A stretch of 64,000 nucleotides of DNA from Tomocerus qinae (lineage: Eukaryota > Arthropoda > Collembola > Entomobryomorpha > Tomoceridae), in NCBI GenBank assembly GCA_020055645.1, contig CM034546.1:135057875-135121874 (forward strand). The letters run 5' to 3'. Shown in pieces: positions 35,729 to 61,956 of the stretch. Position numbers and translations under genes: made by a program. Below the pieces are notes generated by a model. The model did not search any database and had not been told where the DNA came from. It was given only the letters and a program-made list of their open reading frames with translations. Numbering within the stretch: position 1 is the first letter of the stretch; the number at the start of each line of letters is the position of its first letter.

Positions 35729-35799
35729 TATTATTCTATAACAACTACTAATGACTAATGAACAAAACTGAAAATGAGATTTCATGCATTGTAATAAAA

Positions 35800-36260: not shown

Positions 36261-36987
36261 GCTAAGTTAGGTAAGTTCGTTTTGTCCTAATCTCTACGCA
36301 CCCGACAGACATCCGTACGCCCGACACAAGAAACAAACTCAAACCTAACTAACCTACTAGAGTTAAAGTTAAAACGCAAGAAATGAAGAAAGGTCCGAGG
36401 TCGGAGTACTTTAATTCGGAAGGTAACGTAGGCGTCAGGACAGGAATCGGTTAATGGTGGACCGTAGACCTTATGTTATAAACTTGAAATAAATACAGGG
36501 ATTTTTCTCGAAATCCCGCTGTTCGAAAGTTACGGCAGATTTTTGAGAATACCGCCCTTTCTAACTTTCTAGTTGATTTTGACATTTTTTGAAAAGAACT
36601 ATGTGCAGATGATATAAAATGTGGATTAATGTTGGTTATAAAATGTTAGCTTCACTCAGAGCCTTCGCAAACGTGCGAAATCACAAATCTACCGCGCATG
36701 GGTGGAATCACTTTGCAGAGATCAACTAAATTGATTGTCATAACTTTTCAATACATATATATACCCATACCCATTGCTGTTGTTACATGCCCAAATGTAG
36801 ACCGATTGAGAAGATATCGCAAAATACAGCTTGCTTTTTTGGCCCCCATTTTTGTGAGCAGAAAGCCAACGTTTTGACCAATGGGATGTTTCTATTCCGT
36901 TCAAAAAAGTTTCCGCCTAGTCTTCGCATTTGTTTGCAAATTCGCAAACCTTACGGTTTGAAAGTTTGCGCAACCAGTATGCAGTAC

Positions 36988-37124
36988 CAGGGCCGCAGCC
37001 AGAAAAAAATTTCAGGAGGGGTACCAAGAAAAAATTTTAGCGACTTTTTGCGATTTTAGACAAACATTTCTTTATTTTTCTCGATTTCGGGGGGGGGGGG
37101 GTGCCCTCCCTCGCTGCGGCCCTG
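36988..37124. mobile_element. hAT-type MITE, family B, copy 2
   Basis: A 137-base element starting CAGGGCCGCAGC and ending GCTGCGGCCCTG, flanked by a perfect 8-base duplication TGCAGTAC (36980-36987 and 37125-37132). It is related to 23941-24045. It contains a run of 14 G near 37089-37101. Confidence 0.92.
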
Positions 37125-37176
37125 TGCAGTACTGAGTGAAGCTATTGTTATGAAATGTTGATGTTGTTACTACTAG

Positions 37177-37360
37177 CAAGCACGTATCCAGGAATTTGAC
37201 CTAGGGGGGGCACACTAAAATATATTAGTAAAATGATGCCGTATTCGCGCGAAGCGCGAAAATTTTTTGGATTTTTAACCTTTTTGACAAAAAAATCGTC
37301 TTTTTCTGGAAGCTTAGGGGGGGCCGGGCCCCCCCGGACCCCCCTCTGGATACGTGCTTG
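37177..37360. mobile_element. hAT-type MITE, family C (CACGTATCC ends), copy 1
   Basis: A 184-base element with inverted ends CAAGCACGTATCC and GGATACGTGCTTG, flanked by a perfect 8-base duplication ACTACTAG (37169-37176 and 37361-37368). Its inside has G- and C-runs near both ends. A related, inverted copy is at 54048-54222. It lies only about 50 bases from the family B element. Confidence 0.92.
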
Positions 37361-38268
37361 ACTACTAGAGCAACTGTTTAAACGGGACTGCTAAAAGTAA
37401 CATACTGTATGGACATGAACAACTTGTTAATTTAGCAAAGTTTTTCATTTGACTTTACGTTACTGTCAAGTAGAGAGATAACAAGATTTACAGTGTTGAC
37501 ATCGCAAAAAAAATAATATGAGATCAACCTTCAGCCTTCTGTAAAAAATGAATTTGGCTCAAAATGTATAAATAAATTACATGATGTTTGGGGTCAAATG
37601 GTGTGGGCATAGGATAAGTAAAAAAAGTGCATTAGTTATTATGAATGCTTCATAGCCTAGTTGATTAGAATAGGCGAGACGAGGTATAAGGAACTAGTCC
37701 TGGCTAGCAATACAGCTACAGCTATATTGAATAATTATGGACTTTGAATCTTTGCATTTGTCGTAAGTCTAGTTTTTTCATTATTTCCAAGTTTGCGTTT
37801 GTAATAAAATCGTAGTTGGGGTAGTGAACTAGTGAAACAAAACTCCAAAGGTTAGTTGACTGATACAAGGAAAAACGATCTTATTCTATTACACATTGTA
37901 AAGGCATTGGGAAAAATTGAATACATTAATTGGTATTCATTATAGGTTAATTTTTCTTTGCTGCTAGTCTTCTGAATTATTTTTATCTTTACTGATATAT
38001 AGTATGCTTCCTGGCATCTTGTTGCCGACCATATAAAATTGCCAGATAGAACATGCAATTATGAATCTAAATAGATTTTCTCATGCATTATAATAGCAGG
38101 TGGAAATTTCAAAGAACGATAAATAATTGCGCATTACAATTTTCCCAACATACACCTGGTAAAAAAAGTTTTCAGATCAGAACATATTTATATTTCCATT
38201 CAAATTCTAGGGTTGGTGAAGCAAACAACAATTTAAAATCTATTTTTAGCCTTTAATAGTAAGTTAAA

Positions 38269-39995
38269 ATGTCTATTGAAAGAACCACGGGATTAATCTT
38301 AAAGACTATTCACAAAATAATTGAATTTGGAATAGTGATTTTAGCATGGGTGGGTCTATTGTCCACAATTGCTGTGCTATCTCCAGTTTTAATTTTAAGA
38401 CTAGTTGTGTCCCATCTCAAAACTTTTGGACCAGATCTTTACAAAATTGTCAGTCCCTTTGATAACATATTTGCAATAGATGATATTTACACAAATCCAA
38501 TAGCGAATGCAGTGTGTTCTTCACTCCACAAAGGCAATATTGATATTGAATCATTCCGTAGACATTTCATGGAAAGAGTCGTTGGTGTTAAGCAAAGTGA
38601 TGGGGAAATAAAACACGTGAAATTGAGACAATATCCATACAAATGGATGGGATTCATGTTCTGGAGATGGGAGAAGAACTTTGATATTGCGGACCACGTT
38701 TACTATTATGAAATGGAATCTGAAAACAGCAAAAGTTCGAAAGTGTCTCAAAAGCAAATAAAAGAGGTAGAATCGGAGTTAATGACCAAACCATTTGTAA
38801 AGAAAAGAAGTCCCTGGGAAGTTCTTGTTATAAGAAATGTCCAATCTGACTCGGATGAAGAACATTTATTTATATTTAGATGGCACCATTCTATTTATGA
38901 TGGATATTCATTTATTAAGAATTTTTGGATGCCTTTAATATCATTAGACCCTACAATCAAATTAGAGCAATTCATGGCAACTCCATCAAAAGTTCAGAAA
39001 AAACGAGGGCTTGAACAGATTTTGGCTAAATTAAAAATGATCAGTGTCCTTCCTTATGAAATTGTAAGAAATAGTTTTGACATCCAAGACAAGAATTTTT
39101 GGAGAAATCCGGAGAGAAAATTAGGAAACAAATACCTTTATTTTCTCTCGGATAGAATTCCTATGAAGCTTCTAAACGAAGTAAAAGAAATTCATCATGT
39201 GGGATTAACAGCTGTGATTTATTCTGCATTTACTGCTGGAATTAGAAAAGCGATGATTACACAGAAGGGAAAAGTACCGGATTATATTCACTCCGTCCTG
39301 CCGTTTCCATTGCCCGGGCATCCAGATGAACTAGTTAATTATTTGTAAGTAAAATATCAAAATGAATTTAACTCAGTGGAAATCTGAATTATTAACATAT
39401 ACATAGCTAATTTATACAGCTCGTTGGGTTATTTGAGACTTCCGGTCGGAGAATCCGATCCAATAACCCGCCTAAGACTGATACAAGACAATTTGGATAA
39501 ATGGAAAACAAGTCTCATCCCTTTAATGCCATATTATTTCGGTTCACTAGCTTCATGTCTTTTTCCAGCATTAACCAGATTTTTCATTACAAAATTCACA
39601 TCCACAGCAGTGGGCTCCTGTTTTCCTGGTCCAAAGAACAAATGTTCTATTCTTGGCCATGAAGCAGTGGATATTTATTTCTCCATTGGTTCTTGTTTAG
39701 ACCATGTCCGTAAGTTATTCAACTTCTGTATTTTCGAAGTAGACATTTTAGCATCTACGATATATTACGATAGAAAAAAATAGGGTGGGATGGGAGTATA
39801 CACTGTGCCGAAATAATACAATTTTTAAAATTTCAAGCTGTAATACTTTCGACACTTTCTTACGCTGATGGACTTCGTATGAAGATTGCTCTTAACGAGA
39901 ACATCCTGGAAAACCAATTGGATGTGGATGAGATTCAGACGACAATTGAAAAAGAATTTCATCTTTTGAAAAATTGTAGCCGGGTTGGAAATTAA
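38269..39995 (+). CDS. WS/DGAT-type O-acyltransferase, three exons
   Basis: Exons 38269-39344, 39420-39709 and 39838-39995; GT-AG and in frame, 507 residues. Residues about 13-45 are strongly hydrophobic and probably anchor the protein in the ER membrane. The condensation-type active site HHSIYDG is at residues 206-212 (HHxxxDG). The C-terminal part has LSYADGLRMKIALN, typical of the wax-ester synthase/diacylglycerol acyltransferase C-terminal domain. The family joins fatty acyl-CoA to an alcohol or a diacylglycerol to make wax esters or triacylglycerol. In arthropods this would fit cuticular or storage lipid, but the substrate is inference. The gene looks intact. Confidence 0.92.
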
Positions 39996-41192
39996 GTTTC
40001 AACTTTGTTGTTTTACTTTTATGTATGCCTGTAGAAACATTCACGAATTAAAGCAAAATCAATTTATAATTTTAAAAAATAATTTATTGTCGTAAATCAT
40101 TATTACATCGATATAACAGTGCTTAAAGCACGGTTTATCATCAAATACAATATGTTTGGATTGTTTTCTTGACAGAATGGTTAAAGAAAGTAGAGGAAGC
40201 AATAATATAAATATACAATTTCTAGTGGAAGATAAATTAACAATACAAGTTTTGAATTTGAGATTTTCATCCTGCGTAGTAATCTAACATAAATAAAAGA
40301 CAATAAAATGAAGACTCAGATTTACTAGGTTAGGTTTATAGGTTTATAATATAGGGGAATATAAGAGTGGGTGATAGATACCATTTGTACAAACGAATAG
40401 GAGAATACTGCTAAGGGAGGAGAAAATAATACTAAATGCTACAGATGAAGGGAATACATATTACCATTGATATTGATAGAGGTTATAATATAATATTAAT
40501 ATTTAGTGAAGGGAGAATACATGATAAGGGTAAATTATTAACTATAACAGAGAAAATGATGTAAATGATACATGTTTGAATTGGGTAACAAAATTTTAAC
40601 AAAAAAAGGTTTTATAGGGTGGAATAGGGTGTAAAAGTGTAGAATGTAGTGTAAAGATGAGGTGTAGTATTAAAACAATAGTATTACGGCCGTTGCCAAC
40701 TATTTTGAAGTGAAGAATGGGTGGGAAAGATAGGTGATAGGGTGAAGTGAGTGAAATGGCGAATGCTTGAGTAGTATGTTGAGTCTGGTGGCGATTACAA
40801 GTGGAGTTGCGATATTTTGGTTGGTAGTGTGAAATAAAGGGTGTCTGCACAGACGTTTGGCATGATCTTTTGCAATTTCTCCAACAGCTGCATCCGGACT
40901 AGGTCTTGCCATGGGTAAAGAATTGATAGTGTGTTTAGAGAGCCGGAACAGTGCCTGTTGGTTTGAACAACAAAGATTAGTATCATGAATGACATTTTAT
41001 GCTTAGAATTAACGTGCAAAGTTCTGTTTTGGTAGTTTGACATGACTTGTCGATTTTTCTTGTTTAAGCTGAAAAGAATGCATGGTGAATAATTAGAGTT
41101 TCATTAATGCTTTGTGTTTGTCGTTCATGTCGATGGTAAGGATTTCACGTAATTATCGCATTTGACTTGTTGGTTAAAGATTATTTGATAAG
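39996..41192. other. Intergenic; left part of a C-poor block
   Basis: From about 40320 the plus strand becomes poor in C. Small minus-strand frames occur at about 40700-41043 but match nothing I recognise. They could be exons belonging with the orphan ORF that follows. Confidence 0.45.
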
Positions 41193-44100
41193 TCAGGAGG
41201 AATTTATGTATGCTTGTACTCTTTCCTGTGACCAAGATGTTGTTGAAGATGAAGTTTTGGTAGATGATCCTATTGCACTGTCTGATTGATGATAATGAGA
41301 ATGTAAAGAAATTGTCGATTCGCTACTGTGATGCTTTTGAAGTATTTTGGAGATTGAGGCTAACTTTTGGGCATCTAAACCAATGAAAAGGTCGTAAGGC
41401 AAATCGTTATGATTATGACAATCTAACGTTATCTCCTGGTTAGCAATTGGAAATGTAAATTGAGAAAATTTAAAGAAATGATAAGATTGACATGGAATGT
41501 TTTCATCTTTAAATCTGCTGATAGTTCTAACATTAATTGCTGATTCCTTAACTTTGTTAGCATAAAATACTTTCAAATGTAAATTTTTGAATTTGACTTT
41601 CTTTACAGTGCCTTTACGGGTATAGAAGGGCGTATCTTCTATGGGAACAGGGTACCAAGATTTCTTTTTCCTATATGATTCTTCAACATCTGATATATTG
41701 GGGATATATTCGAAGTCTGAGGGAATGTCATTGAGACTAGCATGTAAAGAGGGATTAAATGAAGGTTGAGTGAGTGATAATGGTGGAAATTCTTCTAAGT
41801 TTACAATAAAGTTGTTCCTTGAAATAAGTACTTCTTCTGTGTGTGTACAGGGACAGTTAGAAATAGGATTGATGGTGATTGTAGCTTCAAGGACATTGCT
41901 TGCTTCTTCCTGTTGTGGAATGGCAAAGGGAATAATGTTTTGTGTTTCGACGTGGTTGTCGGTAGGTGGCGTAGTGGGATTAAATTCAGTTTCAGTGTTT
42001 GCAAATAGGTTGCTTGGTTGATTGTGATAAAGATTAAAGGTTTCGTGATGAGGGATTTGTGCATGTGCGAAAGTTTCTGGGTCAATTTGTGAATTGGTTA
42101 CCAGGGGAACTTGTGAAAATGAAAAAGGGTCTGCTGCTGAGACGTTATGAGAATGAGGAATATTAACAGAATTCGTGTGTGCATAATCAATGGGATTTGA
42201 GAATGTATGAGAATTATTGCTAAAGTCGTATAATTGGGATTGGGAATTGATTTCATTGCTGATAGGTTGATTTTTCTTAAACTTGGAATTAAGGAAGATT
42301 CTAGTTTTGAAAAACGATCGACGATTGTTTGGATTTGTCTTCGGTACATCAGCAATAGTGGGTTTGGGTATTATTGGTGTTATAACAGTATTTTCTTTGA
42401 TATGTACTGGCTCTTGTTGGTGAGATATGATTTCTTCATTTACTTCCACCTTTTCTTCTGATATTGGTTGCTGTTGTGTGGATATGTCTAAATTTTCGTT
42501 ACGTTGCTGGTGAAGCACGCATTCTATGATGTTATTGAAATGTGAAATGACCTGAGTGACAGCATCGAAATGCTTGGTGTCTACGACTATCGTTTTAGGT
42601 GAACATAATTTGTGACATATTACTGTGATGGCATGGAGTAGATCAGTTGAAGTTAGGGTACTATGTTTAGAGAATAGCTGTTGCAAGTGTGGGTTTGTGT
42701 TAGTGGCGGTGGCCATGGTGAGTTACTGGAGAAATATTGAAATTAATGTAATATGATAAGTGTAGAGTAAATGTCGGTGACCTGAACTAACATTGTTAGT
42801 TGAGTCGTGCTATAGAATAGTTTTATAAAAATTCATAAATGCTTACATAAATAAAAAGTAAATTTTCATACTTTGAAACTAATGCATGTTGTAGCAGTTC
42901 AGTTGTTATCAATAGTGAATAGGCATGGTATATTCAAAATAATAGTTTGATTGTGTATGGAAAATAAAGTACGTAATGTAAATCGTTAACTTAAGTGAAC
43001 TGAGACAGAAGTAGCAGTAAATTCATTTGAATAGAAAGGAACTGTTGATTTGACTTTGTGAACATTCAGTTTAAGTATCCAGATTTTCAAGAAAAATAAT
43101 AAAAAGTTATTTTCATTGCTGTAGATAAATGTACGTTATGAATAAAGTTCACGGAGAAGTAGCTTTACAATGAACTATTATATACTTGATACAATGTACC
43201 TAACTGAAATGCAGTATATATATGTAACGTAATGACTATAAGGATGACTCAACTGATAGTCGCTATAGTTGGCAGTGGCTAATCTGTGACGGTTTATGTT
43301 TATTAGGTAGGTACGTATTTTTGACGAAAAGAGAATGTGGGGTCAACTAACTTTTAGACAAAGGAAATGCGGATTGGCTGGGAACAAAGAAAATGATCGT
43401 TACGTATCGAATAATATGTCTGAATCTCTTTCCAGTGTTTCAAGAAATGTTTTAAGTTAATTTAAGATCAAAGAAATGAGTTGCGATACATTTAGAATGA
43501 AAACTGACGTGTTCAGATTACTAGAGAATGATTAAAAGAGTAGAAAATTGAATCAGAATGTTGTACATGATTATTTAAGGAATTGTGAGGTAATGAAGTA
43601 TAATTTGACAAAAGGGGGTGGGGAAGTGAATAATGTAACTCAAACGGTAGATTTAATTTACTCGGACAGTGGCCCTAAATTGCAATTGAATTATTGCTTT
43701 ACATAAATCATATAATAATGCACTGCTTAGTTGTGAGTACGACCGCCGGATAAATTTTGCACAGGGACAGATTTCATTTCATTACTTGGTTATTTTCATT
43801 GATAGGATAGATTACATAATATGTAAGATAGAATAGTTTACTCTTTATACCTGTTATATAGAAGAGAGAGACGTGGCGGATTCTGCAACACGGCCAGGAA
43901 GTACTTGGTTATCTGTCCAAGGAAACGGTGACGTAAGCGGGAGGGTGCTTAGTTCAGGTTCTCCGGGCGAGCCGATTCAGGCGGGGTTCAGGACCGTTAT
44001 CTTCTTACGGAATTAACTCTTATTTGTCTTACGGAATTAACTTTTATTCTTCCTTCTCTATTTGTTTGTGTCTTCCGTTCTATCATCTGTTGTGGATGAT

Positions 44101-44560
44101 CTTACGGAATTGAACTTATTTCGTCTTTATATTTCGTACTATTTCGCACTAATTCGGATTGTGAGTGAGCGCGTAACTAACGGTATGATCTGATGGATGC
44201 GTGGTGACCAATATCCGTTCCGTTCGAATATGGTGAGTGGGATTAGGAGATGATCAAATGGAGTCTGGATGTTATGTGAAAAGAAACTCGAAGATGATTC
44301 ACTGTGTATGTATTTTTGGAATGCTGGATAAATTGAGTTTATTGGAATGGAGAATTATATTTAATGTTTTGAGATTAACTTTGTAGAGATTATACACACA
44401 CTTGAAAAACCAAATTTGACGTAAGGTGAAAAAACAAGTGTGAAGGAAACTTATGTACAAAATGTGTTTAAAGTGCACAGTTATTGTGTTGTAAGTAAGT
44501 AGTTTACAAAATAATTTGATTCAATAGGTATATCAAACACTAGGTGAGAAATGGGGATAT
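40320..44560. other. Strand-asymmetric (C-poor on plus) block with orphan ORF
   Basis: By eye the plus strand is clearly G over C through this block, except for a GC-richer patch near 43860-44000, so the minus strand is A/C-rich. The long ORF lies on the minus strand and shares the bias. On the minus strand a TATATAA lies near 43856. A plus-strand purine run at about 43613-43632 (AAAAGGGGGTGGGGAAGTGAA) resembles a retroelement polypurine tract, but no direct long terminal repeats were found. Cause unknown: a retroelement-derived or virus-like insertion is one option. Confidence 0.45.
41193..42716 (-). CDS. Orphan 507-residue protein, possibly retroelement-derived
   Basis: A single open frame starting at an ATG in good context (CACCATGGC) just after a possible splice acceptor (TTTCTCCAG). 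I do not recognise it. Residues 1-85 look helical (LLHAITVICHKL, HFDAVTQVISHFNN). About 90-330 is rich in Asn, Gln, His, Pro, Thr and Ser and looks disordered. About 370-460 looks folded and beta-rich and ends DLPYDLFIGLDAQKL, which recalls the end of a retropepsin-like fold, but no active-site D-T/S-G is visible. The tail is Ser/His-rich. Its A/C-rich coding bias is unlike its neighbours. A fossil or domesticated retroelement protein is one reading; a fast-evolving cellular gene is another. Confidence 0.5.
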   Translation of the reverse strand: MATATNTNPHLQQLFSKHSTLTSTDLLHAITVICHKLCSPKTIVVDTKHFDAVTQVISHFNNIIECVLHQQRNENLDISTQQQPISEEKVEVNEEIISHQQEPVHIKENTVITPIIPKPTIADVPKTNPNNRRSFFKTRIFLNSKFKKNQPISNEINSQSQLYDFSNNSHTFSNPIDYAHTNSVNIPHSHNVSAADPFSFSQVPLVTNSQIDPETFAHAQIPHHETFNLYHNQPSNLFANTETEFNPTTPPTDNHVETQNIIPFAIPQQEEASNVLEATITINPISNCPCTHTEEVLISRNNFIVNLEEFPPLSLTQPSFNPSLHASLNDIPSDFEYIPNISDVEESYRKKKSWYPVPIEDTPFYTRKGTVKKVKFKNLHLKVFYANKVKESAINVRTISRFKDENIPCQSYHFFKFSQFTFPIANQEITLDCHNHNDLPYDLFIGLDAQKLASISKILQKHHSSESTISLHSHYHQSDSAIGSSTKTSSSTTSWSQERVQAYINSS

Positions 44561-45486
44561 AATTATTAATCAGATAGAGATTGGGAGACAATAATGGGTG
44601 GATCAAAAATACAATCTTGTTGATTAGAGATGACAAGAATTCTGTGGGAATTGTAAAAATAGCGTTTTTTGGGAAACCTACAAAATGTCAGCCAGGCTTG
44701 TTGCTGACTCGAAGTTCAAGACCAATCTTTTTAATATCGGACGTCGGAGCGAATTCTCCAGCTCCCGACTCCAACAAAAGTTCAAGCTTCACTATCTATC
44801 TAACTATTTCTTATCGCTTATCTGCCTTCATCGCTAGTCTCAGCTTCATTTCCATAGAATTTAACATATTATTATTATTGGGTCGCTTCTAATGCTTACT
44901 ATCGTTCTACAAATACAATGATTCTGGAAATGTGCAGGTAAATGACCTAGCGTAAAGCAGCAAGGCGAAGCATAGTTTGCTATAAGAATAGGCCTATGAA
45001 AAGCGAAGCTTTTTCTATGTTTACATAAATCTGCCTGACACTATAGATACACATTTGGAGACAGCATCTGAGCTTCTAGCCTGCAAGGTTTGAAAACCCG
45101 TTGATAAATTACGTGCAATTATCTGCTAATAACAGAAATGCAATTATAAGTGAAGCGTGAGAAAGGAAATAAACAACTTCATCAACACGAGTCAAGCCAT
45201 GGCCATGGTCGTACCCAAGGACGGATTGAGGGACAGGCTTTGTATCTTCTCTTTGAAGTAAGGCCGTGGTTACATACAAATACCTATCAATGTTACTGTT
45301 TTAAGAAGGTAAGGTTAGGACCCTCGAAAGCGGATTCTGGTATGGCACGATTTTTAAAATGTCAACCACTGCCTTACTTCAACCGATTAATAAATGGTCG
45401 CTATTCTTGGGTCGCCATTTACCACCAAATGTCTACCTGTAACCTTGAATCATAAATTATTTTTTCTTCAGAGAAAATTTTTAGCT
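42717..45486. other. Intergenic
   Basis: 42717-44560 is the upstream (minus-strand) part of the C-poor block and repeats CTTACGGAATT three times near 44015-44115. 44560-45486 is unremarkable, with short chance frames at 44581 and 45150. No gene could be supported. Confidence 0.5.
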
Positions 45487-46760
45487 CGATTTACTGTAAT
45501 TTATCTCCATAAGAATAATTATCATAATTAAAAAATAAAATGTTATCCAGTGTGGACGAACATGTTGGACAAGTATCTTCAAATTTCATAGCGTTTTGAA
45601 GGGTTGAAAATCAGTACAGAATCCACGAATTCAGGACCATATTTGTGTAAATTCCTATCTTTTTGTTTAACGAATACGACATAATGATAAGCAAACATCC
45701 CTAACTGAAGAATAAAACATTTTTAAAACAATTTCTCTTAGTTTGTCATTACAATACAATTTAGGTCTTACCTCAATCGCTGTAATAACTATCATAAATT
45801 GAATTCAATGCTTTAAATTCCTAATTCACAAATGTTTATACTTCATTTGCCATTTCCTATATATAACACATTATCTACTTATAAATAACGAATTGATTTA
45901 TGATTGATGTTGCAAATTATAATAGCTTTAGTACGTACTTCTGAAAAGGACTCTATTCCGTTCTGTCGGAAAAAGTTGCACTTCTAAAGTTGAATTTTCA
46001 ATTCCCTCGTGATCTTCTTTACTGCCAACAGCATTGTCGTCGCCGCAATCATTCAATACAATATGTAACATATGTGACATGTTTTTAAACGGTAAAATTA
46101 TTATTGTGATATCAACCAAGGTAAATTTTGTACTGGTCGATGGATAATTTGAATTCAAAACTTGGTCTCGGTGCCAAACAGGACTAGATGATAACCCCTC
46201 ATCCCATGTGTGGGCGTAAATTTAAACATAAAAGATAAATTTTATCTCAAAGAAGTGTTGATTAAAACTCTGCATGACTATGCTACCCAGTATGTGCGCT
46301 TATCGATGCCATTATGTCATAGTTTAATGCAGTAAAGGTAACGATTATAGTAGATATACAATTTTTACTGAAAGAAGAATTGGAGCAGGATTATTATGGT
46401 GCTTATATTGCATTGATAATTGTTTGAGTCACATAAAGGAATTTTTCCATGATTTACTAAACAGTTCAGTGACTACTTCATCGTATGGTTTGCGTACAAA
46501 GAACGTTATATAGCGAAGAAAATGAAAAGTAATTAACTGCATACAGAATATTAAGCAGATGTATAAATATATATTTATCTATACCCTAGTCTAGTCATCT
46601 TAATACTTTGGGGTTACAATACCCATCCTCATCCTGAAAAAAGAGTTCGAAATGTGCAAAACGCTTCAAAATACTAAAATGTTAAATATCTTTCAATATT
46701 ATTGTATGCATTTTAATTGAATATTTTTATCCTGTTAGTAGACCAAGGACATCATACAAA
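45487..46760 (-). pseudogene. Partial, broken duplicate of the rhomboid gene
   Basis: Reading on the minus strand, 46080 to about 45937 matches rhomboid exon 1, starting MSHML and keeping LNDCGDD and ERNRV. Its end is frame-shifted relative to the intact gene. A junction then leads straight to the last bases of exon 3 (near 45770), intron 3, a copy of exon 4 (about 45711-45554) and part of intron 4. Exon 2 with its EF-hands, most of exon 3 and exons 5-7 with both catalytic residues are missing. The 5' flank up to 46757 matches that of the intact gene (about 50340-50980). A Helitron sits in the flank at 46786-47154. It cannot encode a protease. Confidence 0.88.
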
Positions 46761-46785
46761 ATATCTATCACTACTTATAGTATAA

Positions 46786-47154
46786 TCCTGTTGTTCGAGT
46801 TGCGCGGTGAAATTCGGTATGTCGGTATTTACATCGGTATATGTATGTATCACCGAATGTTTTGCCGCTCAGATAACGAAGCAGAACCCAATCTGAAACT
46901 TTACCTAAATGTGACAATAAATCTCAACAAGAGACAATCTCAAGGCAATCTCAACAAGAACTGCTTTGTTATTTCATATGAATATAGGCTTATTCGTGCA
47001 CCAAACAAAAAATGGTTATTGACTTTTTTGTTTCTTAAAGGACGATATAATTTCATATACGGTAAAATTTAAAATTTGGCCATTTACATTGAAATTTGCT
47101 CCAGAATACTCACTAGCTTTATTATAACAGGACCTAGGTCCTGTAACCGGCTAG
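46786..47154 (+). mobile_element. Non-autonomous Helitron, copy 2 (uninterrupted)
   Basis: A 369-base element beginning TCCTGTTGTTCGAG after an A and ending CCGGCTAG before a T. A perfect palindrome ACAGGACCTAGGTCCTGT lies ten bases before the end. 5'-TC, 3'-CTRR, a terminal hairpin and A/T insertion are the Helitron signature. The paralogous flank of the intact rhomboid gene (about 50990) lacks it. It carries no gene. Copy 1 is at 20365-21465. Confidence 0.8.
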
Positions 47155-48417
47155 TATAGTAATTAGCCCTATTCAGCGATATTTTCCAGCTCATTTTTGA
47201 TTCTATTAAGATACACAACTATGAGAACTGAGCCAAAATGAATAGCCACAAGTGTTCAGATTTGCAATTTAGAAATCTCTATGGATATTACTTCAAGTTA
47301 TATAACCACTTCAAAAAATCATTTTTAGAGCCCGTGTGTTAAACAACTGTAGCATTGATTGGGATTTTCCGTAAAAATATTCCACAACGTTGCCTAATTT
47401 TATAAACCCCGAGTTATGACACAGAGTAAACCTAGTAGTGTAGGGACGGGCGGCCATTTAAAACCACACTGCTTAACAACGCAGTCCTATACTTAAATAT
47501 TTCCGAACGGTTTTTGATGTACACTGGTTCGGTAAAATTGTCTTACCCTATAAATGTCTGTTGTCCTGTCAGATTTCAATCGAGCTGCTGCTCTACTTTG
47601 TACGATGGATAGAACCAAAATTACATTAATTTTTGGCGAGTATTAATTTATGGACCCCTCCCCCAATTAGGGGGTGAAACCCATTTGGACCATTTACGAA
47701 CTCGGCCTTTCTATTCAACTACAGATTGTACCTTGAAAACTTAAACCCTCAAGCTTAGACCGTTCGAAAGTTATCGTGTGCGGGGATAACTGGACAGACA
47801 TACTTGAAGACTTAGAAGTGTATTTTTAAATGTAACTTTAATCCATTTACAAATATTCGAAGATGGAAATGTTTAGATAACTATTTCGCTTCTTAGAGGC
47901 AACTGATGCATGCTGGCTGCTGTACATAGTACATCCTTTATATCAAGATGGCTCGATTACTAGTTGGGTTATAGACGGACATTCCCCAATTTTTGCACCC
48001 AATTCGTATTCTACCTCTATTTGCACCACAGAGGAGCAAGAACATACGCCGAAAATGTTACCTAGTGATGGTGTTGATTTTACTAATAAAATGTGTTAAC
48101 TGGAGTAAAAAATTGACGCATCTTGTTATATACATAATAGAATATTGTAGTCATATACATTTAATAATTTTGAAGGTACTCTTTTGATTAAATCAAATAA
48201 AAACAAAATCGACTAGAAATTACACAACTTAATAAAAATCAAATTATTACAAAATTGTCAGTCATCACGATTATAATAACGCTTCATTAAATAAATACAA
48301 AATGCAAAAACCCAATCATCAAAACAGATCAATATCATGATTGTCCTTCCTTTCATGTTACTCTGACTTGTGAGCAAGGCTGTATTAACCTGGAGTTTAT
48401 TCTGTCTTTCATACAGC
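47155..48417. other. Intergenic
   Basis: 47155-47215 still matches the flank of the intact rhomboid gene near 51000-51060. About 47400-47800 is less AT-rich (CCCCTCCCCCAATTAGGGGG, GTTCGAAAGTTATCGTG) and looks like decayed dispersed repeat, unclassified. No gene seen. Confidence 0.5.
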
Positions 48418-50337
48418 CTAGACAAATATATTCCAACCGATGGCAATAACAGTCAATGACGAAAAACAACAAAGACTTATCCACCAAACAATGGATTCCC
48501 ATTTCTTTTGCTCCAGATTCTTTAAAACGATGATACCCGTTAAGAGGCCTGCTAAGCCTCCACCAATATGTGCTGCATAACCAATCTATAAGGCAGAAAT
48601 TGTTAATTAAAATTAACTATTCTAATATTTAATGTTGAGTGACGTAGCCAACGCTAAACATTGATTTGTAATGATATGAGCAACTTACATGCGTGTCTTC
48701 CTCCAATATATAATTATAGTAGACCGCAGCTCCAATATCGTATGAAACATACAAGGTAAAAAGAATGACTCGGACATGAGGTCTTTCCATTTGGGGCCAA
48801 TTCTGTTTCAAAAAAAATTATTATTTTAATAAATTACTATAATACTTAAAACAAATAAAAATATCCAAAATAAACAAAAAATTATTTAAAAAAGCTATTT
48901 TTTAAAGAATACTATTTATATTTTTGTCGGAAGGTCAGAGGCTCCGATAATGCACAATTTCTAGCATGTAAATCTACGAAAATGTTTAGAACCAATAGTT
49001 CTTCATATGTGTGACTCAAAAAATTGAGTTCTATACATTTGTCAATTGTATAACGGTAGCATTATACCTACAGATAAAACTGTTATCAATAACTCACCAA
49101 AATAACTGTTGATATGTGAGCAAACATGAGCGCGTATACGCCACCAGAAGCACCAGCCAGGTAGTAGGTCGGATTAAAAATGTATGTAACCAGAGAGCCA
49201 AAAATAACTCCAGACAGATAGATTATTAGTAGTCTCCACCATTTGTGCACCAACTCAAGCAGAAAGCCTAAAAGTACTTGCATCACCATGTTATTCAGCA
49301 AATGCATGTACCTAAAGAATTTAAACGTTTACGATTATCCAATAGCATAAATATTTATGCAATAAATACATTAACATTACTAAAAATTTATCTCCATACG
49401 AATAATTATCATAATTAAAAAATGAAATGCTACCCAGTGTGGACGAACATGTAGGACAAGTATCTCCAAATTTCATGGCGTTTTGAAGGGTTGAAAATCA
49501 GTGCAGAATCCACGAATGCAGGACCATATTTGTGTAAATTCCGATCTTTTTGTTTAACGAATACAACATAATGATACGCAAACATCCCTAACTGAATAAT
49601 AAAACATTTTTAATACAATTTCTATTAGTTTGTTATTACAATTTAGGTCATACCTCAATCGCTGTAATAACAATCATAAATATCGGCGGTGGTCTGCAAC
49701 TATATTCATGTTCTATTCGACCATCTTTTGGCAGAAGCAAAGTTTGGGCACGCGAAACTGCTTTCACCTACAGTCAATGTATAATTAAATGTAAAGATGT
49801 CTTCGTTGTCCTATTTATTTTTATAGTTGCAATTACCTCCGAGTATTCTTTTCGATCTAGTATTCCATTTTTATCTTTGTCCAATCCGTTGAATGTTTTT
49901 TTGCATATTTTCATAATAGTTTTTATAATTTGAATTACCTTCATGTATTCTTTTCGATCTAGTTTCCCATCTTTATCTTTATCCAAACTGTTGAATTTTT
50001 TTTGAATCTTTTCAATTGGAATATTCTTTGAAAAAAGTGTTTTAAATTCTTCTAATTCAATGCCTCCACTTTTGTCTCCATCTAACTAACAAATTAAAAG
50101 AATCAATTTAAAGCTTAAAACTTTATATATACCTACTTTGTGAATAACGAATTGATTTTTATGATTGATGTTGCAAATAATAGTTCTAGTACGTACTTCT
50201 GTGAATGAAGGGACTCTATTCCGTTCCGGAAACAGTGGCAATTCTAAAGTTGATTTATCAATTCCTCCGTGATCTTCTTTACTGTCAACAGTTTTGTCGT
50301 CGCCACAATCATTCAATTCAATTTCAATATGTGACAT
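48418..50337 (-). CDS. Rhomboid intramembrane serine protease with N-terminal EF-hands, seven exons
   Basis: Exons (minus): 50337-50197, 50085-49837, 49767-49654, 49591-49434, 49311-49098, 48802-48689, 48585-48418; all GT-AG and in frame, 385 residues. Three EF-hand loops lie at about 49-60, 82-93 and 116-127 (DKDKDGKLDRKE and DKDKNGILDRKE are canonical calcium loops). The rhomboid core follows: CRPPPIFMIVIT, WRYLSYMFVHTG, then HLLNN at 224-228 (L1-loop/TM2 motif), catalytic Ser276 in GASGG and catalytic His336 in AHIGGG. Rhomboids cleave membrane proteins within the bilayer, and EF-hand forms match the animal RHBDL1/3-like group. Calcium control is likely by family analogy. A broken duplicate lies downstream. 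Confidence 0.95.
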
Positions 50338-53822: not shown

Positions 53823-56800
53823 ATGGCGAGAAAAAGACAGAAGAAAGTTATGAAACGGCAGGCACCCAAAAACCCGCTGTCGTATAATAATGCAGAAGAA
53901 GAGGTATGTAATTGTGGATTTAATTAGTACATGATCTAGATTCAAAATACCACATTATATACTACGGTGAACCACTTAATGGGTAAAAACCCTTATTTAT
54001 TCCTATATTATCTGGTAAGTCTTTGCAAATTTTAGTTATAATGACACCAGGCACGTATCCAAAGGGTGGGCTGGGGCCGGGCTCCCCCTTAATCCCAAAA
54101 AGAGGAGTTGTTTTGTCAAAAAAGGGTAAAAATCGAAAAAGATGTAAAAATTTTATATTTGCGCTAATATTTTTAATGTCCCCCCTAGTTCAAATTCCTG
54201 GATCAGTAATGATACGTGTCTATAGTGTCAATACAGACGCTTAAATCATTTTCCTGAATACATGACGTATCCAGGAAAATGATTTTGTGAAAATGACGGA
54301 AATAGGGCTAAAATCATAATATATAATCGCACTAAATGCACATATTTAGGTACTTTGATAAAAATCACTCAAATAACTGTTTTTCAAATACTCAAGAGAA
54401 TAGCACCTCCTTAAATACGTGCCTGCATGACAATTCACATTACAAAGTTAAATCAACATATTTCTTTGACTTGATACTTCAACATGTACAAATATATTTA
54501 CGAAAATCATTACAAGATCTTTCTAAAACCAATAAAATAACCTTTTTCAGATTATATCGTCTTTTAGTGGCTTGGATTTGGGGTCTCCTGGACCACAAAT
54601 GCGTTTTGAGGACTTGGGAATATCTCCTGATATTCTGAAAGGCATTCACGCCTACGGTTTGGAAAGGCCATCACCAATTCAACAGAGAGCCATTCCCCAT
54701 ATTAAAAATGGACGAGATGTCATCCTCCAGGCTCAGTCTGGAATGGGAAAAACTGCTGCCTTTTGCGTTGGAATCCTCGAACGCATAGACATTAATAATT
54801 CCGATATACAGAGTCTGGTCTTAGCTCCAACCCGTGAGTTAGCAGAACAGGTAAACCCAATGGCACACTAAGAAGATAATTTTTGCATAAAAATAAATTT
54901 TTTCGTAAATGTAAATGCCTGGACTTGGAAAGTATTGTAAACATGGTTAGGCACTTAATATACATTCTTTGTCTTTATGCTAAGGAAACTTTATAGATAA
55001 ACACTTAAATTCATATTTATATTTTGCAGATTGGCGAAGTATTCACTGCTTTAGCTAGATACACCAAAATAAAGATTTTGGTATGCATTGGGGGATCTCC
55101 TTTAAGAGAAGACAAAAAAGGACTTGAATCTACCGTCCATATTGTGGTGGGGACGCTGGGCCGAATTTTATCCTTAATAAGACACAAATCAATCCAACTT
55201 CTCACTATAAACGTATTGGCGTTAGATGAGGCTGACAAAATGGTGACGGATAGAACATTCACAACCGACATTTCTCAGGTAGTAGAAACAAATGGCTGTA
55301 TACGCCAGGGAACAAAAAAGGACCTTTTTGCCTTTTTATAAAAAGTAGAAGTAATTTTTCTTTAAAGCAGTCCCTTTTTTGTCTTTTTATTTTTTTAATG
55401 TATCAGCGTGCCCCATTTACTTCCATGTAAATAAGGTAAAAAATGTAAAAAAGGTAAAAAGGACCCCTTTTTAAAAAAAGTAAAACTTTTTTACTTTATT
55501 GTAAAAAAGGAGCGCCTTTTTTGTTCCTTGGTAAACGCATATTATTATTATTATTTTCTGGATAATCAGAATAGGGGGGAATTTAATAAACATGCAGTTA
55601 TATACCAATAAATCTCCAGGTTGAAACGATTTTGGAATCATTTTGCATTAGTATCACTATTTTATATTTTGTAGTATTCATTTTAGTTTAAACTAATTTC
55701 AGTGAACGTTTTTAGTACAAGACATAATAATAACGTAAATTTATAATTTTGTGCAGATAATTTCGGACATCAGCGGAGATGCTCAAATAATCCTGGCTTC
55801 TGCAACGATGCCTTCTGGTGCTTTAGATGTGACACGATCATTTATGAGGAACCCAATAAAATTCTTGATCAATAACGAAGAGCTTACGTTAGAAGGAATC
55901 AAACAGTTTTACATAAATGTCGATGGGGAACAGGCTAAATTGGAAACCCTGCGGGATTTGTACCCACATTTGTCCAAATCCCATGTAGTTATTTTTTGTA
56001 GCACCCGGCGAATGGTCACCCTGCTGCACAGAAGTTTGCTCGGACTAAATATCGAAATAGCAATCATGGTAATCGTACAAATATTTTATGTGGAACTGTT
56101 TAAATGATATTTGAGCAAAATAATTTATATTTATCAACAATAAACATTTGCGGTTTTAATTTCATTCGTTTATTTACAATTGGACTCTATTTAGAAATTG
56201 ACTTTTCGTAAATTTTGAATTGCACGAGAAGTACCCAAATATTAATTATTTATAATGTAAATATAGCTTTTTTTGCTCTTGTTCTATTACAGATTGGATT
56301 CTTAATACATATTTAGGACTAGTGTATGATTATAGACTAGAACTAATGGGCTATTAATGTTTCAGACTGGAGAAATGAGTCAAAGGGATCGAGATACGAC
56401 CTTGCGGGATTTTAGGACTGGAAAGATTCGTGTTCTAATAACTTCTGATGTAATTGGACGAGGAGTTGATGTGCAACAATTGTACTGCGTGATCAATTAT
56501 GATTTGCCCATTAATCAAGTTGATTACATTCATCGGTAATTTCAAAACTGTATACCTAGTACTATTTTTACGTTGATAAACATCAGGGGACAAAAAAGGT
56601 ACTCGTTTTTGCAAGAGCTACTTTAAAAAAGCCCTTTTTACCTTTTTGCCTTATTTACATGTAAAGTGAAAGTAAGCGGGGAACGCTGCTACATCAAAAA
56701 AGGTAAAAAAGCATAAAAGGACAAAGGACTGCTTTTAAAAAAAGTTATTCCTACCTTTTTTTTTACAAAAAGGCAAAAAGATCGTTTTTTACTTTCCTGA

Positions 56801-57200
56801 TAAACATTGCATTATGGCATGGGCATGGGGTACCATGTGACTTAATACCCGAATACCCCATGCCATAAAACAGTTACCCTGTGGAAGTAGAAATAGTCAG
56901 ACCACATCATGATTTTTCGAAATGCTATGATATTGATGTTTATGGTCAAAAATTTAATGTTTAACAGGGAGGTTAGGAGTTATTTCAAAGTTATAACCTT
57001 GTAAGTAAAAAAATTAGATTAGATATGTAATTAACTATACTTTTGATTTACTAAGTGTTGGTCGAGGTGGTCGATTTGGACGTAAAGGCCTTGCAATTAC
57101 TCTCGCAGACCCCAAGGACCAGGCCAGACTGAAACAAATCGCCGAATTTTATCACACAGACATTCTGGAATTGGAAGCGGATTTGGAAAGGATTTTTTAA
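53823..57200 (+). CDS. eIF4A-like DEAD-box RNA helicase, divergent, six exons
   Basis: Exons 53823-53903, 54551-54850, 55030-55278, 55757-56068, 56366-56535, 57056-57200; GT-AG and in frame, 418 residues, about eIF4A size. Motifs in order: Q motif (PSPIQQRA, 67-74), I AQSGMGKT (88-95), Ia PTRELA (120-125), GG (148-149), II DEAD (193-196), III SAT (225-227), [31 protein letters not shown] (370-377). Closest by eye to eIF4A/eIF4AIII ([19 protein letters not shown]). Changes from the usual form: GMGKT for GTGKT, TLGR for TPGR, and MTGEM for the usual MHGDM. The basic N-terminus ([13 protein letters not shown]) could be a nuclear signal. Three MITEs sit in the introns. Probably a fast-evolving paralogue; exact role unknown. 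Confidence 0.93.
54048..54222. mobile_element. hAT-type MITE, family C, copy 2 (decayed, in helicase intron 1)
   Basis: It starts CAGGCACGTATCC and shares long stretches, in inverted orientation, with 37177-37360 (TTTTGTCAAAAA, then TTCAAATTCCTGGAT or TCAAATTCCTGGAT). The far end is altered and no target duplication is clear, so it is an older insertion than its relative. Confidence 0.75.
55306..55530 (+). mobile_element. hAT-type MITE, family A, copy 3 (in helicase intron 3)
   Basis: A 225-base element starting CAGGGAACAAAAAAGG and ending CCTTTTTTGTTCCTTG. The 8-base flanks GTATACGC and GTAAACGC match at seven of eight positions. Same orientation as the copy at 30134. It lies about 27 bases after the exon 3 donor. 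Confidence 0.85.
56584..56799 (-). mobile_element. hAT-type MITE, family A, copy 4 (in helicase intron 5)
   Basis: A 216-base element, inverted relative to the other copies (the core reads AACGCTGCTACATCAAAAAA). It is flanked by a perfect 8-base duplication ATAAACAT, so it is the youngest of the four family A copies. Confidence 0.88.
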
Positions 57201-57644
57201 ATGTAAAACTATATTTTCTATAATATAATTCACATTTACGCTGTTATTTCACCATAGTATAGAGTTTTGCCAAGCAATAAACTTGCAAATAAATAAATCT
57301 TAACCCAAATTGTGGAAACTACCAAATTTTACAAAATGTTACCAAAAATATAACAGAACGGTTAATTTAAATGAATAAATTGCAAACGTTCCAAACCATT
57401 ATTTATGACGTACACTATTACTTCACAAGCCAATACGTGATGAACAATATAATTATTTTGTGCAAGTGGAATAAACAATAAAATATTTGTTGTATTCCCG
57501 AAAATTTATAACTACCTGGAATGAAATCGAATTGTGGAAAAAATATTCTAAACATCTACTACAAAACATACTATAAAACCCTTTCTTACAGAATCTTAGA
57601 ATGTTAGTGAAAGAATATTTATCAATATAAAATCTCTATAATTC

Positions 57645-58091
57645 TTAGCGTAATTCCCAATTGACCCTGAAACGCCCTACGGACAAATTTTCACCAAGAG
57701 CTTGAAAGGCGGCAGGAGACAAATCAATATCTTCTCGCTTGCAGCCGTAGCATTTATCACGAATTCGTACAGTTACAGAACGACCGTTCCTAGGATTTCT
57801 CACAACTGCCGTTTTCTGGCACATCGGATCAACATTTGGATTGGGAGTAGTCCACCAACTGAAAGCAGTTGCAGCTACCATTTCAGAATTGCTATGCTGG
57901 GTTCCACACGCAGTTAGTCCCACACTCAAATCGTAATATGTAGCATCTCCGCTCACTGCATGAAAACAAAATATATTTGATATTTGATGTAAAATTTGTG
58001 AATAATAAATAATTAAAAATAAATGCTTACATGCTTCAGTGCCAATGTAGTTGAAGGAAAGTACGAACCCTAGCAAAATAAAGCGAATCAT
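57645..58091 (-). CDS. Secreted expansin-like (double-psi beta-barrel) protein, copy 1
   Basis: Exon 1 58091-58031 and exon 2 57955-57645, joined by a 75-base intron; 123 residues. An open frame extends above the ATG only from a TTG, so the ATG at 58091, matching copy 2, is used. Residues 1-20 are a signal peptide (MIRFILLGFVLSFNYIGTEA). The mature part, from LSGDATYYD to the end, is a single RlpA-like/expansin-like barrel: TACGTQ, PMCQKTAVV, VRIRDKCYGCKREDIDLSPAAF, GRFRVNW. The four cysteines and the DLSPAAF block are those of small secreted fungal and bacterial members of this fold. Such proteins loosen cell-wall polysaccharide or inhibit proteases; which applies is unknown. The family is not a usual animal one, so horizontal transfer followed by gain of an intron and signal exon is a fair inference. 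Confidence 0.9.
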   Translation of the reverse strand: MIRFILLGFVLSFNYIGTEACKHLFLIIYYSQILHQISNIFCFHAVSGDATYYDLSVGLTACGTQHSNSEMVAATAFSWWTTPNPNVDPMCQKTAVVRNPRNGRSVTVRIRDKCYGCKREDIDLSPAAFQALGENLSVGRFRVNWELR

Positions 58092-58175
58092 TTTAAATTC
58101 TTTTTCCAAACTACTCGTTGGTTATTAAGTAATGTTGATTGAAGTTGTTATGCTATTGCTTGAAAATTATAACCG

Positions 58176-58183
58176 TTTATATA
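58176..58183 (-). promoter_or_regulatory. TATA box of expansin-like copy 1
   Basis: On the minus strand TATATAAA, about 85 bases upstream of the ATG. It is mirrored at 60459-60466 in front of copy 2. Confidence 0.65.
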
Positions 58184-58324
58184 CCATTTAAAAATCGATA
58201 GCATGTGAATTTCCAGGAAATCATTCAAAAGTAAATTCCATTGCAAATAAAAGATAACTCCGAATTTTTAGGAATTTATCTGCGCCTTTGTACTACAAAT
58301 TGTTTATTTAAATGATATACATAG

Positions 58325-59353
58325 TAGGGAATCCAAAGCCGGTTTTACACCGGTTTTAAAACCGGTGAAAAACCGGAATTTTCAAAACCGGAAACCGGTT
58401 TTAATTTTCTGAAAACCGGTGTTGATAGAAGATATTGAACTGTAACTTATATGCAGTTAAAATAGCAATAAAGCCTGAAAATTCAAAAAACCGAAATCGA
58501 GATACAATTATAAAGTCACTAATTATATTATATAATCCTAAATGTTTGGATGCGTGTAATTATGTAGACTCCAATAAAGTAAAACACAATACACTAGTAT
58601 TTACAATAACAATAACAGTAAAGCAATAGAAGGGCAATCACCAGTTCCGTTTAGAGTTTTTGGTTTAGAGTAACGCAAACGCAATATAAAAATGTCAGTA
58701 AAAATGTTCTATCTTCGATATATTTTTTGAAATAAAATAAATTTTTTACTTTACTTGCAATCATTTTAAAGCAATTTTCTCTAATTTTCAAAAATTTTGA
58801 AAGTATAAAAATATGAGGAAAATTGATTTGTTTCAATGACGCTGTATTCTATCTATGAGATATTCTATGATTTGCATTACGTTTGAGAATTATCGAAAAC
58901 TGGAAATGAGTTAGAAAAATATACCATACAGATTTAAGTTCAAACTCTCAGAACGTTTTTGGAGTGGCCAATAATTTTAGTACATAAATTTACAACATTT
59001 TGATTATTTCTCAGGAGAATGACTCGATAGAATTGGTTCTGTAGCAGGGACCCCTGCAATTGCAATACATTTGGTACTATCAGCACCATTTAAACGATAA
59101 TACTAAAACTACCTTTGAGATTTATATCTCATTTAAAAATTAAAATAAAATTTTAAAAAGTTAAAATTCCACTTCATGAAATTGTGTTCTGTCTGTCTTT
59201 ATCTGCAAACACATTAATTTGGTAGTATTATCATTGAGTTTTAAAAAACAAATTTTCGGTTTTTAAAACCGGTGAAAAACCGGTTTTAAAAGTTCAAAAA
59301 CCGAAAAACCTGAAAACCGGTTTTGAAATTTGGGTCCGGTTTTGGATTCCCTA
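58325..59353. mobile_element. hAT-type element with AAACCGGT repeats, inserted in one arm of the inverted duplication
   Basis: A 1029-base element starting TAGGGAATCCAAA and ending TTTGGATTCCCTA, flanked by a perfect 8-base duplication ATACATAG (58317-58324 and 59354-59361). The other arm (near 60330) holds the uninterrupted target. Both ends carry clusters of AAACCGG and its complement. No transposase frame. Confidence 0.92.
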
Positions 59354-59361
59354 ATACATAG

Positions 59362-60458
59362 CATGTTGTCAATGCTTTCATTTGCACACTTTGCTGCTTT
59401 TTGCGTAAGAGTTTATTGCCATAACAATTCTAGGTAATATGGCAGATTATTATACAATAATATTAATTGCAAAACACTTCCTAATTGGTTGGATTACTCA
59501 GGAGATAAGGTTTAACTTGTTTTAATAAAGCGTAATTATTAGTCAATGTTTTTGTTATTTAGAGAAACTACGCATTATTATTGGCTCTCTCAGACTAGAC
59601 GGATCACTTTGGTCATAATTACATGATAATTATCTTATTTTTATGATCATTAAATAAAAAATCCAAATCTAATGAAAATATCTTCAGGTATCCAATGCAT
59701 GCACAATTTCAAAATTACTGTTTATATCGACAAATGAGGCTATTTAATATTATGCATATCTTTTTATACAAATAGTGATATCTTTATGATAGCTTGTAAC
59801 ACGACAAAGTTTTGTCAATAAAACACATAATCCCAAACCCCAAATAGTTTATATGGTATTAAATTTACTGTATTGCCAACTTGCATCTTGTATCCACCGT
59901 TATGAACTAAACATGCATCTCTGAATAATATATGTATTCCATAATAATATGCACATTAGCTTATTAGAACATAAATAACTAGCTTTTGTAAGCTATTTAC
60001 ATATCAGTTAACAAGGAATTGGTAGTTAAACCACAATTAGTGTCATGGCACATCTGTTTACAAATGTTTTTTTAAATCACGGCTTCTTGTCATTTTTTAT
60101 TTAATGTCCGTAAATAGCATAATAACATTGGTAAATTATTATCGGGCTTTTCGTAAAAGCATTTAACCCCATTCTCCTTAGTAAACCAATCTACTAGGAA
60201 ATTAATTTGCAATGAATATTATTTGTATAATAATCTGCCATATTACCTAGAATTGGTATGGCAATAAACTCTTCCCAAAAAGCAGCAAAGTGTGCAAATA
60301 AAAACATTGACAACATGCTATGTATATCATTTAAATAAACAATGTGTAGTACAAAGGCGCAGATGAATTCTTAAAAATTCGGAGTTATCTTTTATTTGCA
60401 ATGGAATTTACTTTTGAATGATTTCCTGGAAATTCACATGCTATCAATTTTTAATTGG
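59362..60458. other. Spacer between the expansin-like genes
   Basis: The rest of the left arm (to about 59550), a unique AT-rich centre, and the upstream part of the right arm (from about 60120). No gene seen. Confidence 0.6.
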
Positions 60459-60466
60459 TATATAAA
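60459..60466 (+). promoter_or_regulatory. TATA box of expansin-like copy 2
   Basis: TATATAAA, 85 bases upstream of the ATG at 60551, the mirror image of 58176-58183. Confidence 0.65.
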
Positions 60467-60550
60467 CGGTTATAATTTTCAAGCAAAAGCATAACAACTT
60501 CAATCAACATTACTTAATAACCAACGAGTATTTTGGAAATCGAATTTAAA

Positions 60551-60991
60551 ATGATTCGCTTTATTTTGCTAGCGTTCGTACTTTCCATCAACTACATTGG
60601 CACTGAAGCATGTAAGCATTTATTTTTAATTATTTATTATTCACAATTTTTACATTAAATATTATTTTGTTTTCATGCAGTGAGCGGAGATGCTACATAT
60701 TACGATTTGAGTGTGGGACTAACTGCGTGTGGAACCCAGCATAGCAATTCTGAAATGGTAGCTGCAACTGCTTTCAGTTGGTGGACTACTCCCAATCCAA
60801 ATGTTGATCCGATGTGCCAGAAAACGGCAGTTGTAAGAAATCCTAGGAACGGTCGTTCTGTAACTGTACGAATTCGTGATAAATGCTACGGCTGCAAGCG
60901 AGAAGATATTGATTTGTCTCCTGCCGCCTTTCAAGCTCTTGGTGAAAATTTGTCCGTAGGACGTTTTAGGGTCAATTGGGAATTACGCTAA
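60551..60991 (+). CDS. Secreted expansin-like (double-psi beta-barrel) protein, copy 2
   Basis: Exon 1 60551-60611 and exon 2 60681-60991, joined by a 69-base intron; 123 residues. The mature protein is identical to copy 1. I count three nucleotide differences in the 311-base exon 2, all silent. The signal peptide differs at two residues (LLAFVLSINY against LLGFVLSFNY). TATA box and leader match copy 1. The genes are divergently arranged around a common centre and probably share their expression pattern. Function as for copy 1: a small secreted barrel protein of a mostly microbial family. Confidence 0.9.
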
Positions 60992-61956
60992 GAATTATCG
61001 AGATTTTATATTGTTATATCAGTTTAATATTCCCGGAACAGCATTCTAACTACATAGACATTTTTTGAAATTGATTTTGATTGACCCTGCGTTAAACTTA
61101 TGGCTATAATTGTCCCTATTTTCACTTTTCAATCCTTAGAAAACTATTTACTTTTCACTACTTTAAGTCGATATGTAAATATACGTATGAATTTATGAAA
61201 TTTGCAACATGAATTTTCAATTAGTGGCATTATTAAACTCTGATTGTGATAGTATTTGGTTAAACATTTATTTCGCATTATTGTGCATTTTATCATTTCA
61301 CTGCATTTATCTCACAGCATTCTGTGATTATGTTAGAGCGTACAGATGAGACGAAATTATAAAATATCTATGTAATTACAGTTAACTTGCATTAGGTGTA
61401 ATGTATTTTTAATCATGTCGATTTTTTAAATGCAAACCGTGTAAACATTCATAGCATAGTACACACATCGAAGAATAAATACTTGCGAACCCCTCAATAA
61501 TTTCATTTAAATTTGCACCTGATGGTGTATTTTGAATCATTTTCTGTTAAACTGAATCGTTATATTTATTGAAATCAGTAAGCGTTTATGTGGTTACACT
61601 TATAAGGTTTACTAGTATCAAAGCACCATAGACGGGACAATATAACATGAAAAATGCACAATGTTCTTCTAGAATTTCTGAAGCCTCAGAAAGGATGACT
61701 CTACGCATTCTGAATGGTTACCCAACCAATTTGGTATTATTATAAGATTTATAAATGCCAGGCTTTCAACACCTTGTAGTACTTATGGACACTTACTTAC
61801 TTTACTAATACTCTTATTTTGTCTAATTAATCGGATAAGAGCCTCATAATGGGCATGCATAAATTTAACAAATATTATAATTTAATTTAATGCATTTAAA
61901 ATAAACAATGACATACACGCCATTATGCAAAGATTCAGGAAATATTTTTTTGCCAA
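60992..61956. other. Intergenic
   Basis: AT-rich spacer between convergent genes; no feature recognised apart from the end of the inverted duplication near 61010. Confidence 0.6.

Follow-up and report, generated by a model that had tools for sequence, protein, structure and literature searches.

How did two neighbouring copies of one small gene come to keep an almost unchanged coding exon? The question is raised by a locus in a 64-kb stretch of contig CM034546.1 (the window), in which two copies of one gene lie head to head, at 57645-58091 on the minus strand and at 60551-60991 on the plus strand, within inverted arms that are about 96% identical. The inverted duplicate genes had been recognised in an original prediction made by eye from the sequence, which described them as expansin-like and proposed that either selection or gene conversion between the arms keeps the second exon uniform. 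The duplication is borne out; the explanation has to be divided. Taken as a whole, the history that we consider probable is that of a gene pair of the papain-inhibitor type which underwent one equalising event, drifted to ~4% divergence with selection acting on the protein, and later received an insertion in one arm.

The gene pair and its silent sites

Each copy consists of a 61-base exon 1 that encodes the leader, a GT-AG intron, and an exon 2 of 311 bases, in which the entire mature domain is encoded. In the left copy, on the minus strand, exon 2, which encodes the mature double-psi beta-barrel domain and includes the stop codon, is found at 57645-57955, the 75-bp intron (GTAAGC...CAG) at 57956-58030, and exon 1 at 58031-58091. 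The right copy, on the plus strand, has exon 1, aligned with that of the left copy, at 60551-60611, a 69-bp intron at 60612-60680, and exon 2 at 60681-60991, described as a papain-inhibitor-like domain from NCBIfam, a sequence match in the PDB and a fold model. The splice borders are common to both copies, and a TATA-like box, located by pattern match, stands at the same place in each, 92 bp before the ATG (58177-58183 on the minus strand and 60459-60465 on the plus strand). The leader resembles a signal peptide by eye, and the encoded protein is presumably secreted. Besides the pair, no further copy of the gene was found by BLASTN within the window.

Regarding the extent of the arms, BLASTN aligns 57617-58324 with 60318-61019 (683 of 708 positions identical), and a second aligned block lies further in. 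The left arm thus has an outer near-identical part, 57617-58324, and an inner one, 59354-59473, the latter aligned to 60207-60325 at ~5% divergence, and the two are separated by an element of 1,029 bp; the near-identical part of the right arm, 60207-61019, is free of it. Because this element splits the left arm, the inner flank reaches deeper than had been supposed: the original prediction was correct that the inner flanks differ and contain gaps, but the arms continue inward to ~59473/60207. With the element excluded, the near-identical tract measures ~0.8 kb (~60207 to 61019 on the right) and contains 22 substitutions in total. They are distributed over the 5′ flank (14/342), the 3′ flank (1/25), the intron (2/69, with one 6-bp indel in addition), exon 1 (2/61, both replacements in the leader, Ala/Gly 8 and Ile/Phe 13), and exon 2, where exactly three are found, all of them silent, as had been estimated.

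Comparison of the silent sites of exon 2 with the introns and flanks, the check that the original prediction itself had proposed, leaves no sign of conversion specific to the exon. Silent divergence in exon 2 is 3/69.7 sites (dS, the silent divergence per site, 0.044) and that of the noncoding parts of the arms is 17/436 (0.039, corrected 0.040), values that are equal (Fisher p 0.75), although the counts are small (3 silent differences, 22 overall), so that a twofold effect could stay hidden and moderate differences between exon and flanks are possible, which tempers the conclusion. By the criterion given with the prediction, such equality favours plain copying with selection over conversion of the exon; exon-specific gene conversion is rejected on the silent sites, and conversion that is merely stronger in the exon is not supported. 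The other half of the proposal holds. Replacement changes in exon 2 (0 in ~236 sites) are below the noncoding level (p 0.001), and the mature domain is identical because of purifying selection. The exon looks unusually uniform because selection removes protein changes, and an exon apparently preserved by conversion dissolves once its silent sites are set against introns and flanks.

A divergence step at the inner edge of the arms

A step in divergence within homologous arms is a better sign of conversion than the uniformity of an exon, and such a sharp tract border is present here. Inward of 59474/60206 there are ~100 bp of clear homology at 24-28% divergence (the range over four scoring schemes, with 4-7 gaps), compared with 3.9% outside. 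The two relict blocks, 59474-59570 on the left and 60102-60206 on the right, are partners in an older inverted homology: their anchored alignment over 97 by 105 bases scores 67.5, a value reached by none of 200 shuffles (maximum 30), and over the first 110 bp inward none of 1000 shuffles reaches the observed score by either of two scores. Over 531 noncoding columns, a single change point is placed at right coordinate 60202, with 22/93 differences inside and 17/438 outside, and 0/1000 permutations are as strong; no second change point is found within these columns (p 0.996).

Further inward lies a unique spacer of ~530 bp (59571-60101), whose halves (59584-59838 and 59842-60090) have no detectable inverted homology, the anchored score being reached by 597 of 1000 shuffles. 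For the innermost spacer piece alone, 36/1000 shuffles reach the observed value by one score and 929/1000 by the other. A palindrome spanning the whole spacer was rejected: lenient BLASTN joins 900 bp at 63%, but past the first 110 bp the alignment is no better than that of shuffles.

At the outer ends, anchored alignment at four offsets finds no homology beyond 57617/61019 (scores matched by 62 to 126 of 200 shuffles), nor is there any in the first 100 bp outside the arm ends (242/500 shuffles). One result points the other way, since in the 417-bp outer flank an unanchored local alignment has a score reached by only 3/500 shuffles, and a weak outer homology is possible. This alignment begins 66 and 35 bases off the arm ends, and we take it as AT-rich background.

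The element that splits the left arm, at 58325-59353, is non-autonomous, ends in TAGGGAATCCAAARCCGG, and is one that we take to be hAT-like from its terminal inverted repeats and 8-bp target duplication. This duplication, ATACATAG, is perfect and is found at 58317 and 59354, closing the outer part of the left arm (58317-58324) and opening the inner one, while the matching place of the right arm, 60318, carries a single copy. Since the target site is duplicated on the left and empty on the right, the element entered after the arms had become alike. No further copies of it were found by BLASTN within the window.

The step suggests that most of both arms derives from one later copying event, which left an older strip at the inner edge. 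No change in divergence is detectable within the 4% tract, which points to one event instead of a steady process, and there is likewise no sign in that tract of ongoing conversion. A single event would have given both copies identical sequence across the 0.8 kb of exon, intron and flanks, and we infer that it was either the overwriting of one arm by the other through gene conversion or the birth of the pair itself by foldback copying. Afterwards the arms would have drifted independently to ~4% while selection held the mature protein unchanged, and the hAT-like element would then have entered the left arm; the diverged inner blocks of ~100 bp would be a trace of the state before the event. Foldback would leave the same border as conversion, and the odds between the two are close to even.

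Gene conversion between the arms, which we place first but hold as tentative, would have acted on an old inverted pair in one event, reaching from ~59473/60207 to the end of the homology, ~4% divergence ago. The position of the step inside homologous sequence fits it, as does the fact that the gene copies are far less diverged at silent sites than the blocks: had they been equally diverged, the probability of three or fewer silent differences in 70 sites would be 9e-6 at 24% and 4e-7 at 27.8%. The tract would, however, have to stop at the outer limit of homology, where no relict block is found; there is no patchwork of repeated events, and the older age of the pair is indicated by one inner block only.

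Foldback duplication follows as a real possibility. An older imperfect inverted repeat would have stood beside one gene, and a broken strand would have folded back on it and been copied outward, a scheme that accounts both for the relict at the inner edge and for the clean ends on the outside. A yeast study describes widely spaced, divergent inverted repeats that fold back in single-stranded DNA, a process that it reports to be suppressed by heterology only above 25% (PMC10164571). That precedent is imperfect, as the blocks are today about at this limit and the events described in yeast yielded dicentric chromosomes, not small interstitial pairs.

Plain recent inverted duplication, with a higher rate of change in the inner blocks or hypermutability near the centre, agrees with the ~4% seen alike at exon-silent, intron and flank sites, but it is improbable, for it needs a sixfold jump in rate between adjoining noncoding bases at the step, and the spacer lies still further in. 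An assembly artefact, through a foldback chimera or joined haplotypes, was one of the circumstances that the original prediction had named as fatal to it and is highly improbable, because, even if erroneous scaffolding can yield artificial palindromes according to one genome survey (PMC7953838), the arms are separated by 22 substitutions as well as by indels and by an insertion, with target duplication, in one arm only, and no homology is anchored at their outer ends.

The encoded protein and its origin

On sequence and modelling grounds, the product is a single double-psi barrel protein that appears closest to the actinobacterial papain inhibitors, and not an expansin. Pfam assigns the domain to DPBB_1 (4.1e-12) and Barwin (2.1e-05). 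The NCBIfam model NF041659 (papain inhibitor, cysteine/serine endopeptidase inhibitor) is matched with 104.7 bits (3.5e-30; equivalog cut-off 150), whereas the expansin EXLX1 model (NF041144) gives 37.6 bits against a cut-off of 100 and is matched over positions 1-93 of 194. The chain ends after the barrel, and the second, cellulose-binding expansin domain (CBM63-type) is absent, so that the name expansin-like proves too loose. The model TIGR00413 for the RlpA lytic transglycosylase gives 18.1 bits and does not reach its cut-off of 82.

Among solved structures, the papain inhibitor of Streptomyces (SPI; PDB 5NTB) is the best match by sequence (3.9e-20). A structure of the 102-residue mature domain, modelled on a 31-row alignment, has a mean predicted local distance difference test score (pLDDT) of 94.5 and superimposes on 5NTB with a template modelling score (TM, normalised by query throughout) of 0.90, a root mean squared deviation of 1.1 and 43% identity over the fold. 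Other folds are further from the model: kiwellins have TM 0.79-0.84, the loosenin 9CE9 0.78, and expansins 0.74-0.79. Four cysteines are invariant in 31/31 rows of the alignment, which includes 30 of the 70 bacterial loci described below. An SPI-like double-psi barrel is therefore predicted with high confidence.

That the protein is instead an expansin or loosenin relative, loosening or binding plant or fungal cell walls, is unlikely. Expansins and loosenin share the double-psi barrel fold at the TM values given above, the Barwin match agrees with such a relationship, and a tree that groups the window protein with them is not rejected; the papain inhibitor is nevertheless nearer by sequence, by family model and by fold, and the second domain is missing. 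As for the activity, our best guess, by analogy, is inhibition of papain-like proteases, which is proposed because a fungal relative, RsRlpA, reportedly blocks papain when assayed (PMC7662947).

A scan of prokaryote genomes returned 101 pattern matches, 70 of which encode relatives, and all 70 are actinobacterial by record title. Among the matches listed, the first nine come from Lentzea (eight) and Amycolatopsis (one), at 43-45% identity, and a shorter Streptomyces stretch has 47%; over the 30 aligned loci, identity is 35-48%. The patterns were derived from papain-inhibitor relatives themselves, so that other donors could be missed. Three plasmid records match, from Streptantibioticus (two) and Streptomyces (one). 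In viral contigs, a pattern-guided scan gave 13 pattern matches, none of which was confirmed, and phages gave no match at E 1e-3. The features looked for in an acquired gene are present: an intron and a TATA-like box in both copies, and native genes nearby, among them one of the insect cuticle protein family in the window and, ~415 bp outside the left arm, a gene that resembles a helicase by eye. From these comparisons, horizontal transfer of the gene from a microbe, bacterial or fungal, is likely. The gene would probably have descended from a microbial gene whose nearest known relatives are actinobacterial, and it would now stand, spliced and provided with a promoter, in an arthropod-like genome.

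Several results pull against this assignment and origin. The NF041659 score remains below the equivalog cut-off, which is passed by all eight of the bacterial relatives tested (of 70), with 151-218 bits. In a tree of 78 rows (the window protein, the 70 loci, two plasmid matches and five PDB segments), where the only eukaryotes besides the window protein are two fungal chains of known structure, the best topology places the window protein next to an Amycolatopsis protein with support of 92/78 but with a branch length of 2.91, and it falls in none of the well-supported sets that comprise at most half the rows. Constraining it to group with the four rows of expansins and loosenin lowers the log-likelihood by 3.25 and is not rejected by the approximately unbiased test (p-AU 0.42). 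Pairwise scores thus favour the papain inhibitor, and the tree is compatible with placement inside or outside the actinobacterial group.

Surroundings of the locus and known systems

The DNA of the window is eukaryotic and rich in AT, and its genes are arthropod-like. Pfam cut-offs were reached, among ten frames scanned, by an insect cuticle protein, a ligand-gated channel frame and a UDP-glycosyltransferase, and scans for tRNA genes and Rfam families over the whole 64 kb gave no matches. The helicase-like neighbour (54572-57200, plus strand) resembles DEAD-box helicases by eye and has several exons; one piece of it, 55751-56104, has no Pfam match, and short A-rich repeats lie inside the gene. 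Four long open frames of 635-675 amino acids on the plus strand (2101-4128, 5961-7898, 10878-12839 and 31406-33313) are visibly related, each with the motif HPWDNxVW, and resemble divergent ionotropic receptors by eye; the only one of the four that was scanned, at 2101-4125, has no Pfam match. A palindrome of ~226 bp at 35796-36021, which BLASTN aligns to its reverse complement at 86% identity, is possibly a foldback element. Strong GC skew (+0.36) marks 40001-44000, around a 507-residue frame on the minus strand (41193-42716) that has no Pfam match and is perhaps gag-like or virus-derived; no repeats of at least 60 bp were found in 36000-48000. At 49818-50014 a 102-bp unit is repeated in tandem, ~1.9 times, with an 84% match.

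Compared with SPI, the window protein is alike in its double-psi barrel of ~100 residues and its four cysteines, and differs in being encoded by a spliced eukaryotic gene and in its score below the equivalog cut-off. Pea aphid RlpA genes are reportedly bacterial double-psi barrel genes that were transferred to an arthropod; those are of the RlpA type, whereas the window protein falls far short of the RlpA model. Two further eukaryotic double-psi barrel proteins, RsRlpA (Rhizoctonia solani) and Pst-DPBB (Puccinia striiformis), are fungal effectors. For Pst-DPBB, papain-type inhibition has been proposed in the report describing it (PMC11820871). An expansin-related single-domain protein of the whitefly Bemisia tabaci, Bta15239, is described as one double-psi barrel, with a signal peptide, that was gained by horizontal transfer; it differs in being of plant origin and EG45-like, not papain-inhibitor-like. 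The same paper notes that single-domain barrels are not known to loosen cell walls (PMC11800479).

In some animal genomes, foreign genes as well as inverted gene pairs are a matter of debate (PMC5490193, PMC7953838). In the springtail Folsomia candida, the genome report describes inverted gene duplications as well, but its palindromes are collinear clusters of genes and the pair described here is one gene in 0.8 kb; the range of synonymous divergence (Ks) among them is wide, which the authors present as evidence against general concerted evolution, and 809 genes are called horizontally acquired (PMC5490193). A survey counts, among 23 annotated asexual genomes, 13 without a palindrome and eight with one to four (PMC7953838). 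The window locus joins these known kinds, as an inverted gene pair that carries a probably foreign double-psi barrel gene. Among the titles and abstract openings listed by literature searches, none reports a papain-inhibitor-like gene in an arthropod, which is no proof of absence.

The fullest form of the account is on balance doubtful: a protease-inhibitor gene gained by an arthropod through horizontal transfer would have formed an old inverted pair, in which one arm was then replaced along its whole length by conversion from the other. If true, it would provide a tract border that can be dated, and the inverted layout would keep a foreign gene in two matching copies. Should the protein prove to be microbial in origin and to work as a papain-type inhibitor, it would add a protease-inhibitor class to the foreign genes of arthropods.

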